A DNA stretch of 64,000 bases from Prochlorococcus sp. AG-347-L17 (lineage in GTDB: Bacteria; Cyanobacteriota; Cyanobacteriia; PCC-6307; Cyanobiaceae), in assembly GCA_003278925.1 (NCBI GenBank), contig QCCN01000006.1, positions 42,081 through 106,080 on the forward strand, given 5' to 3'. The translations under genes were made by a program, and so were the position numbers. Below, one piece after another: positions 8,264 to 23,477 of this stretch. The stretch's first letter is position 1. The number at the start of each line of letters is the position of its first letter. Under the pieces are notes generated by a model. That model was given only the letters and a program-made list of their open reading frames with translations. It was not told where the DNA came from and did not search any database.

Positions 8264-9629
8264 TAATTTATTAAGAGCTCCAAACCAAAGTATTGAGGAA
8301 ACTGGTTATGCCTGGTATGTAGGTAACGCTAGATTAATCAATTTATCTGGACGTTTATTAGGAGCTCACATTGCTCACTCTGGACTAATCGTCTTTTGGG
8401 CGGGAGCAATGATGCTCTTTGAGGTTAATCATTTTACTTTTGATAAACCAATGTGGGAGCAAGGTTTAATCTGTATGCCACACGTTGCAATGTTTGGCTA
8501 TGGAATAGGCCCAGGTGGTGAAGTTACTGATATCATGCCTTTCTTCCAAGCAGGCGTGGTTCACTTGATAGCTTCCGCTGTACTTGGTTTTGGTGGTATT
8601 TACCATTCATTAGCAGGTCCAGAAAAACTTGAAGAAGATTTTCCATTTTTCTCAACCGATTGGAGAGATAAAAATCAAATGACAAATATCCTCGGATACC
8701 ATTTGATTGTTCTAGGTGTAGGTGCATTAGCATGGTCAGTAAACTGGTGTTTTATTGGCGGTGCATATGACACATGGGCACCTGGTGGTGGTGAAGTCAG
8801 ACTTGTAAACCCAACCTTAGATCCAAGAGTCATTCTTGGTTATCTATTTAGATCTCCATGGGGAGGAGCTGGTTCAATAATCGGTGTTAATTCCATTGAA
8901 GATATTGTTGGTGGACATGTTTACGTGGGTATTACTGCAATTATTGGAGGAATATTCCATATCTTTACCAAACCTTTTGGATGGGCTAGAAGAGCTTTTA
9001 TCTGGAATGGTGAAGGACTATTAAGTTACGCTCTTGGTGGAATTTGTGTAGCAAGTTTTATTGCTTCAACTTTCATCTGGTTTAACAACACTGCTTACCC
9101 TTCTGAGTTTTATGGCCCAACTAATGCTGAAGCTTCACAGGCTCAAAGCTTTACTTTCCTAGTGAGAGATCAAAGAATTGGAGCTAACGTAGGTTCAACA
9201 ATGGGACCAACAGGTTTAGGTAAGTATCTCATGAGATCTCCTACTGGTGAAATTATATTTGGTGGTGAAACAATGAGATTTTGGGATTTCAGAGGCCCAT
9301 GGTTAGAGCCTTTAAGAGGACCTAATGGATTGAGCCTTGAGAAAATTCAAAATGATATTCAGCCTTGGCAGGTAAGAAGAGCTGCTGAATATATGACTCA
9401 TGCTCCAAACGCTTCTATCAACTCTGTTGGTGGAATCATTACAGAGCCTAATGCTGTTAACTTCGTTAACTTAAGACAATGGTTAGCTGCAGCTCAATTC
9501 TTCCTAGGATGGTTTACATTCATTGGTCATCTTTGGCATGCTGGACGTGCTAGAGCAGCCGCTGCCGGTTTCGAAAAAGGAATCGACAGGAAGAGTGAAC
9601 CAGCTCTAGAAATGCCTGATTTAGATTAA
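8247..9629 (+). CDS. psbC: photosystem II CP43 protein
   Basis: GTG start at 8247 ([13 protein letters not shown]) preceded by GAGGAGG; 17 bp overlap with psbD. The ORF-track start at 8220 is too early. Confidence 0.95.
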
Positions 9630-12890: not shown

Positions 12891-12979
12891 AAAAAAGACC
12901 CCTTTAACGGGGTCTTTAATGGTTTCACTAAATCAAGTGTTTCCTTGTTTCCACTTTTTCCAATAAAACCAATCCTTCA
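12891..12979 (-). ncRNA. Yfr2-family cyanobacterial small RNA
   Basis: Minus strand GTGGAAACAAGGAAACACTTGATT followed by terminator AAAGACCCCGTTAAAGGGGTCTTTTTT; TAAAAT -10-like box at ~12984-12989; ~90 nt. Confidence 0.8.
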
Positions 12980-13194
12980 CACAATTTTAAGCTATGTCAT
13001 TAAATTCTTTTTCGTGGGAGGGCTAAGTGGAATGTTGCTTAACTGTCACAAGTGCCAGTTTTTCATTTCTGGACATATTGGAAAAACACTAATTCATAAA
13101 AAAGGGTGTTTACTTATCAGAGATTAACGTGTGAAGAGTTTCTTATTTGTACAACTTATTTGGAAAAGGTATAAATTATCTAAAGTATCGTTTG

Positions 13195-17194: not shown

Positions 17195-18454
17195 TTAGAA
17201 TTTGAATGTGGTTTGTAAAAGGTAACCTGTCATGTCAGCTTCCGCATCACTGGAGTTTTTGGAAGTTCCACCAAATATTGTTGGAGTAATTGAAACTGAA
17301 TCATTTACTTTATACTTATAGTAAAGTTCATACAAGAAAGGATCAACAGTTTCTCCTTCAACTTTTTGAGGCTGACCAAATGCTAAGCCAATTTTATCAT
17401 CAGGATTGATTACGTCAGTCCAGTTAAGTCCAACAAAATAAGCAGTTGTATTTGAGTTTGATGATGCATCGGTTTCTGAGGTGTCATAACCAACTGAAAT
17501 AGAAGGTACAGCAGTAGATGAATCTAATGGTCTCCACCAAGCTCTTAAACCATAGTTAGTACTATTACCGTCACCTGATCTTGCTTTTCCATCGGTTGTC
17601 ATGAAATAAGAGTCAGTCCAGCCATTATATTTCATGTTAACTAGAGCAGAAACAGAATAATTAGACTTTGTATACCCAATTTGAGTTGCCCAACTTTGTT
17701 TAGCTTCATCAGTTAAGACAGGGTTTTTGGATGTAATGTTAGAACTAACTGCAAAACCGTTATCTGCATTATAAGCCCAACCAGCTCCTGGACTTGTACT
17801 TGCACCATAACCAGCTGCATTACCTCCAAGAGTAAATGCCTTCAACACTGGTTCATATATTGAAGGAGTTGTGGCATGCATATAGTAGTTTTCGATCTTT
17901 GGACCGAAAGTTACAGTATGATTGGTGTCACCAACTGGAGTTGTGTACCAAAGTTTATCAACTTTAAGGGTATCTCCATTACCGTTACCTGAACTTAGGT
18001 ATGTATTGTAAACAGATTTTGTTTTAGACCAAGAAGAGTGATTACCAGTCTTAATTCTCGTATAGAGATTATCATCACCAGTAAAACTAGTATTTAAGTT
18101 CATTGTATATGTATACATGAACTGTGTTTGACCGGTGTATGTGTCGTCATCAGTATCAACACTACCTATATCGAAAATTGCTTTACCATCTAAAACTGTT
18201 GTATCGGAAAAGCCACCAGCTTCAATTTCATTTTGTTTGACCTCTAGGCCATCAACACGACCTTTAAGGATTGCAAGATCTTCACTAACTTCGTTAATGA
18301 ATGTTTTACTGTCAAGTCTTGAAGATTGATTATTGGTGCTACGAGAGTAGCTATTAATTTCTTCTAAGTTGACAACGTCAGAAGCTTGAGCAGCAATTGG
18401 AGCTAATAAGCTCGCAGATGCTCCTGCAACCAACATTTGTTGGAAGAGTTTCAT
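17195..18454 (-). CDS. som: outer-membrane porin (cyanobacterial Som type)
   Basis: Signal peptide, coiled-coil after it, beta-barrel C-terminus ending in ...LLQTTFKF. Confidence 0.87.
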   Translation of the reverse strand: MKLFQQMLVAGASASLLAPIAAQASDVVNLEEINSYSRSTNNQSSRLDSKTFINEVSEDLAILKGRVDGLEVKQNEIEAGGFSDTTVLDGKAIFDIGSVDTDDDTYTGQTQFMYTYTMNLNTSFTGDDNLYTRIKTGNHSSWSKTKSVYNTYLSSGNGNGDTLKVDKLWYTTPVGDTNHTVTFGPKIENYYMHATTPSIYEPVLKAFTLGGNAAGYGASTSPGAGWAYNADNGFAVSSNITSKNPVLTDEAKQSWATQIGYTKSNYSVSALVNMKYNGWTDSYFMTTDGKARSGDGNSTNYGLRAWWRPLDSSTAVPSISVGYDTSETDASSNSNTTAYFVGLNWTDVINPDDKIGLAFGQPQKVEGETVDPFLYELYYKYKVNDSVSITPTIFGGTSKNSSDAEADMTGYLLQTTFKF

Positions 18455-18458
18455 TTTA

Positions 18459-18491
18459 CCTCACACTAAAAATACCCAATAAAAATGGGTA
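18459..18491 (-). promoter_or_regulatory. porin leader: possible Yfr1 sRNA target site plus hairpin
   Basis: Minus strand GTGTGAGG at 18466-18459 just upstream of ATG; TACCCA/TGGGTA inverted repeat at 18473-18478/18486-18491. Confidence 0.55.
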
Positions 18492-18592
18492 ACTATACTG
18501 TATCGAGCGTAACAGAAAAGGAAAGATATAAAAGTTTCATTTCGATGTAGCTTATGATACTAACAAATTTTTTCTTGTCCAAATTATATATT

Positions 18593-22418: not shown

Positions 22419-23477
22419 TTAGTTTTGAGTAATTTTTGTATTTTCAATATTGTCAAAAGCTTGACCAATTTTCTTAAAGTCAAATCCCATTGCTCTTAGT
22501 GCGTGCCAAAGATGACCTTGTAAGAAAAAGAAACCTAAATAAAAGTGAGTATTAGCAAGCCAAGCTCTTGAGCTATATGCTCCTGAACCTAAATCTACTG
22601 TGTCAGTAAAATAAGGGGCAAATTCAAATTGAAGCTTTAACGGTTCTCCATATAGATCAACAGGATATATGGTTGTATTTGAAGCGCACCAAAAAGCAGC
22701 AACAAAAGCCATATATGAAACGCCAACAACTGAGTATGACAAAATTGCCTCAGCGCCAAGTAATCCTTTCCCTTTAAATTCTGTATATTCTCCAAATTGT
22801 TTAGTACAAATATGGAAAACACCCCCAATTATTTCTAGGAAAGCTAGGAAAGCATGTCCTCCCATAACGTCTTCCAGACTATCTATTTTTAAAAAATCAA
22901 ATTGATGATTCCAGATAGCGGCAATATCTAGATTGTAAATAACTTGTCTTGTAGATCCTATTGCTGGGTCGTAAATTCCATGTATACGAGCCCATTCAAC
23001 GAACATAATTGCTCCAAGTCCTAGGAAGATTAGATGATGACCAAGAATAAAAGTTAATTTATCTGGGTCATCCCATTCGAAATCAAATTTTTGTGGCTTA
23101 CTATTTTCGGGGTAGTCTCCAAGATCACCTGCAAATTTGTTGGAATGTAATAATCCCCCAGCACCCAATACTGCTGAGAAAATTAGATGTAATGTGCAAA
23201 TTACAACAATTCCATATGGTTCAGTAATAACACCATTTTCAACGCCACCAATTCCAATACCTGCTAGATGAGGCAAAACAATTGCTTTCTGTGCACCCAT
23301 AGGAATACTAGCGTCGTAACGAGCTAATTCAAATAATCCAAAAGCTCCTGCCCAGAACATCATTAGGCCTGCATGAGCAGCATGAGCAGCTATGAATTTA
23401 CCTGAACGGCCTACAACACCAGAATTCCCTGCGTACCAGTCATAGGTGACATCAGATTTTCCGTAAGTTTGTAACAC
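22419..23477 (-). CDS. pcbA: divinyl chlorophyll a/b-binding antenna protein Pcb
   Basis: CP43-like six-TM protein lacking the large lumenal loop; MLQTYGKSDVTYDWYAGNSGVVGRSGKFIAAHAAHAG. Confidence 0.96.
   Translation of the reverse strand: MLQTYGKSDVTYDWYAGNSGVVGRSGKFIAAHAAHAGLMMFWAGAFGLFELARYDASIPMGAQKAIVLPHLAGIGIGGVENGVITEPYGIVVICTLHLIFSAVLGAGGLLHSNKFAGDLGDYPENSKPQKFDFEWDDPDKLTFILGHHLIFLGLGAIMFVEWARIHGIYDPAIGSTRQVIYNLDIAAIWNHQFDFLKIDSLEDVMGGHAFLAFLEIIGGVFHICTKQFGEYTEFKGKGLLGAEAILSYSVVGVSYMAFVAAFWCASNTTIYPVDLYGEPLKLQFEFAPYFTDTVDLGSGAYSSRAWLANTHFYLGFFFLQGHLWHALRAMGFDFKKIGQAFDNIENTKITQN

Follow-up and report, generated by a model that had tools for sequence, protein, structure and literature searches.

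The porin gene on the minus strand of the window (the whole 64-kb stretch of DNA analysed here) raises the question of whether a small-RNA circuit proven on other porins also controls this one. In Prochlorococcus MED4, Yfr1 represses the porin genes PMM1119 and PMM1121 (Richter et al. 2010, as described in PMC6778093; Lambrecht et al. 2019); the initial annotation had pointed to this repression, and the literature bears it out (PMC6778093). When the PMM1121 leader is placed before a reporter in E. coli, Yfr1 represses expression about four- to fivefold and Yfr2 relieves the repression (PMC6778093). In Nostoc PCC 7120, Yfr1 represses alr0834, which is homologous to the porin genes targeted in MED4, and other envelope genes (PMC6974561). 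The Nostoc case resembles the present one in the repression by Yfr1 of an mRNA homologous to the MED4 porin targets, but it belongs to a distant lineage with a wider cell-wall regulon; the likeness is one of homology. The reading developed below, to which we assign a probability of roughly 0.85, is that Yfr1 or Yfr10 would repress translation of a hairpin-capped mRNA of the window porin.

The gene (17195..18454, minus strand) belongs to a 1.52-Mb Prochlorococcus genome of the high-light group and encodes an outer-membrane porin of 419 aa. Its product matches the NCBIfam SomB porin model NF033921 at 112.5 bits (cut-off 100); a Pfam search of the same protein returned no match. An AlphaFold2 model built with 33 orthologues as input forms a 16-strand barrel (mean pLDDT 78), and its Foldseek matches are general porins of the OmpF/OmpC type. 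The family match above cut-off and the beta-barrel fold together identify the gene as a SomB-type porin. Two further porins are encoded in tandem on contig C15 of the same genome and are 33-36% identical to the window porin, which is the third porin paralogue of its genome and is present in many high-light genomes, among them those of the cultured strains MIT 9201 and MIT 9107. It has no counterpart in MED4: a search of that genome for an orthologue found none, the best match having 35% identity, and this value together with the separate tandem pair on C15 rules out the window porin as the orthologue of PMM1119/PMM1121. This target was therefore out of reach for the studies made in MED4. The tandem porins (L009 and L012 on C15; L247 and L255 in MED4) have near-identical barrels and differing N-termini and leaders, as if each pair were a product of gene conversion; the leaders of both members still carry the octamer GTGTGAGG. 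Porins of most other genera (L196, L198, L200, L203) contain, after the signal peptide, a segment of ~80 residues that high-light porins do not have; by eye it resembles an SLH domain, although Pfam reported none.

In the window, GTGTGAGG occupies positions 18459..18466 (minus strand), 4 nt upstream of the porin ATG (18454-18452). In the mRNA it reads GUGUGAGG and, judged by conservation and complementarity, is a predicted docking site for Yfr1 or Yfr10 that includes the Shine-Dalgarno GAGG. The leader quoted in the initial annotation is found as given on the minus strand, with GTGTGAGG, the ATG, the hairpin and the TACAGT/TATAGT boxes all present, and the complementarity claimed at the Shine-Dalgarno holds for 8 of 8 nt against the Yfr1 core of the same genome. 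A pairing calculation had also been proposed there, using IntaRNA; with another program, the predicted net energy of the leader with the genome's own Yfr1, or with the Yfr10 on contig C21, is about -13.0 kcal/mol. IntaRNA energies published for MED4 targets, -13.4 and -10.5 (PMC3142192), come from a different program and are only loosely comparable with this value. The leaders of the other two porins of the genome gave -11.9 and -13.5 kcal/mol, and in a ranking that covered the 51 ORFs of the 64-kb window the leader of the window porin came first. The pairing extends over just 8 bp, which counts against an interaction with Yfr1 or Yfr10.

Candidate partners are encoded in the same genome. Yfr1 is present as one copy on contig C9 (RF01116, 58.0 bits; gathering score 38) with ACUCCUCACACAC between two stem-loops, and its ultraconserved ACUCCUCACAC core is unpaired in the predicted fold. 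The initial annotation had let its proposal stand or fall with the core of the strain's Yfr1, and that RNA does carry CCUCACAC, unpaired. Yfr10 lies on C21 beside a Yfr2-type RNA; its core is identical to that of Yfr1 and its pairing energy is equal, and the partner of the porin leader may be either RNA, since the pairing motif is common to both. Assignment of the porin to the Yfr1 regulon is supported by the site and by the genome's own Yfr1, but it has to be qualified in that the gene and the MED4 targets are not orthologous and Yfr10 is an equal candidate. Yfr2-type RNAs contain a GUGUG(A/U)AGGAG stretch that resembles the porin site. In MED4, GTGTGAGG precedes each of two porins arranged in tandem around 1.066 and 1.069 Mb, where PMM1119/PMM1121 are expected, and the Yfr10 motif starts at 346668, within the published Yfr10 interval 346661-346738. 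The window porin and PMM1119/PMM1121 thus have in common the sRNA motif, GTGTGAGG directly before an MKLF-type porin start and the expected block of the ribosome-binding site. They differ in that the window porin is a paralogue of its own (33-37% identity), with a conserved leader hairpin that is missing from PMM1119/1121-like leaders.

A second Yfr10/Yfr2 pair is located in the window (13068-13146 and 12916-12986, minus strand). Its Yfr10 core is ACTCTTCACAC and its Yfr2 has GTGTGAAGGA; through this change the two RNAs gain 8 perfect pairs with each other, and the hairpin around this Yfr10 core is decayed. The pair is also found in near relatives. Co-evolution of the two RNAs is unsupported, because GUGUGAAGGAG in orthologous Yfr2 RNAs also occurs beside unchanged Yfr10 cores. 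The window also contains Rfam IsrR matches at 8661-8844 (minus, 151 bits) and 22904-23075 (plus, 54 bits), the second of which runs antisense to an isiA/pcb-like gene for a chlorophyll-binding protein (22419-23477); these matches may reflect coding similarity only.

The single copy of GTGTGAGG in the 64-kb window compares with 0.38 expected from shuffles, so its mere presence is insignificant; position and conservation carry the significance, and it is these, not the window count, that rule out a chance occurrence of the 8-mer. Ten copies occur in the 1.5-Mb genome: three directly before the ATGs of the three porins, two as complements of the two sRNA cores (Yfr1 and Yfr10), and five elsewhere, none of them at a start codon. 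Among 80 orthologues the octamer is letter-identical in 79, with GTGTGAGTT as the sole exception, and the leader bases flanking it vary, a pattern that indicates selection on the docking site. A search of the genus for the motif before ATGAARYT matched 228 of 266 genomes and 84 of the 87 good ones (reversed control, 0 matches); the 38 genomes without a match, many of them incomplete, count against control by Yfr1 or Yfr10. Across the family the same search matched 237 of 300 genomes and 48 of 59 genera, with 2 control matches. A looser pattern applied to the whole class matched very many unrelated starts and was uninformative on whether other families share the site. By these comparisons the site is near-invariant in porin leaders, genus-wide and in the greater part of the family.

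Upstream of the docking site, a U-rich linker UUUUUA (18467..18472) follows a 6-bp hairpin, TACCCA-TTTTTAT-TGGGTA (18473..18491), which comparative stem tests place at the predicted 5' end of the mRNA. The predicted -10 box, TACAGT (18497..18502), lies within a conserved GATACA(G/A)T whose GATACA is invariant in a 20-sequence alignment; a second -10-like box, TATAGT, overlaps it just downstream. The -10 box and its constant spacing to the hairpin predict a transcription start at 18490 (±1 nt), upstream of the docking site, and a leader of ~36 nt. A GTTAC-N4-GATACA block over the -10 region (18497-18513) is conserved in most orthologues and is possibly a regulator site.

When the 30 nt upstream of the site were tested for a strong stem, 90% of 67 distinct high-light leaders had one, as did 20 of 28 leaders of other genera, against 3.6% of shuffles; of 25 leaders of PMM1119/1121-like pairs, only 2 did. 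The end of the 3' arm lies 6-8 nt upstream of the site in almost every high-light leader. Of 62 high-light leaders, 59 have a TANNNT box that ends 6-7 nt ahead of the first G/C of the stem, and the same spacing is seen in 17 of the 18 non-high-light leaders that have such a box (10 others have none). When box, spacing and stem were required jointly, 87 of 113 leaders passed, compared with 7.7% of shuffles; since the leaders are related and nothing but base composition is preserved in the shuffles, all these percentages are descriptive. The stem occurs with pairing kept as CCCA/TGGG, CTCA/TGAG, CCTA/TAGG, GTCTAC/GTGGAC, GCGC/GCGC and GCTTGA/TCAAGC. RNAalifold on a MAFFT alignment of the leaders gave weak stem covariation, an effect of unequal loop lengths and misaligned arms, and per-sequence stem tests were used in its place. 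Since the hairpin starts 6-7 nt past a conserved -10 box it should form the 5' end of the mRNA, and the simplest reading is that the porin mRNA begins with the stem. On comparative grounds, the suspected structure at the 5' end of this short leader is real. A literature search of partial coverage found no description of a hairpin in cyanobacterial porin leaders, and the conserved element, with pairing kept across genera by the stem comparisons, appears to be new here.

Both parts of the leader could be read differently. If the octamer were simply an extended Shine-Dalgarno sequence, or a relic of common ancestry among porin leaders with no sRNA control, one could point to the ability of GAGG to pair with the 16S rRNA end and to the fact that all site-bearing porins are related. 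However, the GTGT half has no pairing partner in the anti-Shine-Dalgarno and is dispensable for ribosome pairing, yet it is conserved equally to GAGG, and ribosome binding does not explain this conservation. GAGG itself is hardly used by other genes of the high-light group: among 508 high-light ATG ORFs of at least 120 aa, it stands at the Shine-Dalgarno position in 83, in 81 of them as part of GTGTGAGG, and the proteins of these 81 are porins starting with MKLF (80) or MILF (1, L027). The 508 ORFs come mostly from orthologous neighbourhoods of the window porin, so this rarity holds for the porin and a restricted group of further genes, not genome-wide. The rarity of GAGG elsewhere and a GTGT conserved without ribosome need lead us to reject the extended Shine-Dalgarno explanation, and a relic is hard to reconcile with neighbouring leader bases and a hairpin sequence that have fully diverged; we regard either as very improbable. 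The hairpin, for its part, might be a DNA operator, or a terminator of read-through from glyQ, instead of an mRNA 5' cap, given that glyQ lies upstream on the same strand and that a U-rich stretch directly follows the stem. An operator would not allow the stem sequence to vary freely with pairing kept, stems of 4-7 bp are short for a terminator, and the fixed distance to the -10 box described above also counts against this alternative; it is unlikely, if less so than the preceding one.

A closer competitor is that Yfr10, not Yfr1, is the main regulator of the window porin, for instance in darkness, when MED4 Yfr10 rises. The Yfr10 on C21 is indistinguishable from Yfr1 in core and predicted energy, and genomes without a Yfr1 match are relevant here. 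We tentatively take genomes G341 and G275 to be MIT9211 and SS120. Both strains are reported without Yfr1 (PMC2190773), and Yfr10 was detected in SS120 (Lambrecht et al.); the absence of Yfr1 from the genomes compared here rests on a filtered search and these published reports. In the genera of G341, G275 and a third (g17), the ACTCCTCACAC motif occurs in a small-RNA-like arrangement, GGAC-ACUCCUCACAC-N-GUCC, followed by a terminator-like hairpin. Such Yfr10-like elements, with the motif in a hairpin loop (L165-L167, L171-L173, L175, L176, L178, L180, L191, position 1501), lie mostly near a tRNA in genomes without a Yfr1 match, and the Rfam Yfr1 and Yfr10 models do not match them. In favour of Yfr10, MIT9211-like genomes without a Yfr1 match retain GTGTGAGG at their porins and possess a Yfr10-type element; in G341 all 3 of the porin leaders inspected carry the octamer. 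On the other side, the SS120 clade mostly has TGTGAGG or less, with GTGTGAGG in two leaders, so that the site is partly relaxed where Yfr1 is missing, a point that also weighs against control by Yfr1/Yfr10 in general. Where just a Yfr10-type RNA remains, the site thus persists, if somewhat relaxed. The MED4 porin-leader experiments used Yfr1, which is abundant at all times (PMC6778093), and we consider Yfr10 as main regulator somewhat unlikely.

For repression by Yfr1, probably also Yfr10, the following course is proposed. The porin mRNA would start at the small hairpin and expose GUGUGAGG, with its Shine-Dalgarno, as a single-stranded docking site; the hairpin would leave this site accessible and could protect the mRNA against degradation. 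Pairing with the ACUCCUCACAC motif would mask the ribosome-binding site and repress translation. Yfr2-type RNAs, rising in high light or nitrogen limitation, would bind Yfr1/Yfr10, relieve the repression and release the porin mRNA. We infer that repression and relief carry over to the window porin from its paralogues. Porins of E. coli are likewise regulated by small RNAs of the MicF/MicC type, and its ompA mRNA has a 5' stem-loop; outer-membrane mRNAs, sRNA control at the ribosome-binding site and the stem-loop are points of likeness, whereas the sequences and sRNAs are unrelated and the window leader is only ~36 nt long. In MED4, few protein-coding transcripts live as long as the som mRNA of PMM1121 (PMC2897979), but the leader of this mRNA lacks the hairpin, so its longevity does not establish a link between hairpin and stability. 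More tentatively, and somewhat short of an even chance, picocyanobacterial porin leaders may be two-part: a 5' hairpin, free in sequence and fixed in position, that would protect the mRNA and keep the next nucleotides open, and a frozen GUGUGAGG that would serve as Shine-Dalgarno and also let any sRNA carrying the Yfr1 motif dock, with stability and translation set separately.

The experimental base of the link between Yfr1 and porins consists of two MED4 genes and a Nostoc homologue. By the comparisons made here, the circuit proven in MED4 very probably also governs the window porin and its relatives across marine picocyanobacteria. The docking site is among the most conserved porin-leader elements of the picocyanobacterial family, including in a porin absent from MED4. 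Lineages with a Yfr10-type RNA but no Yfr1 retain the site in full or in part. The conserved 5' hairpin makes the question of porin mRNA stability directly testable with reporters.
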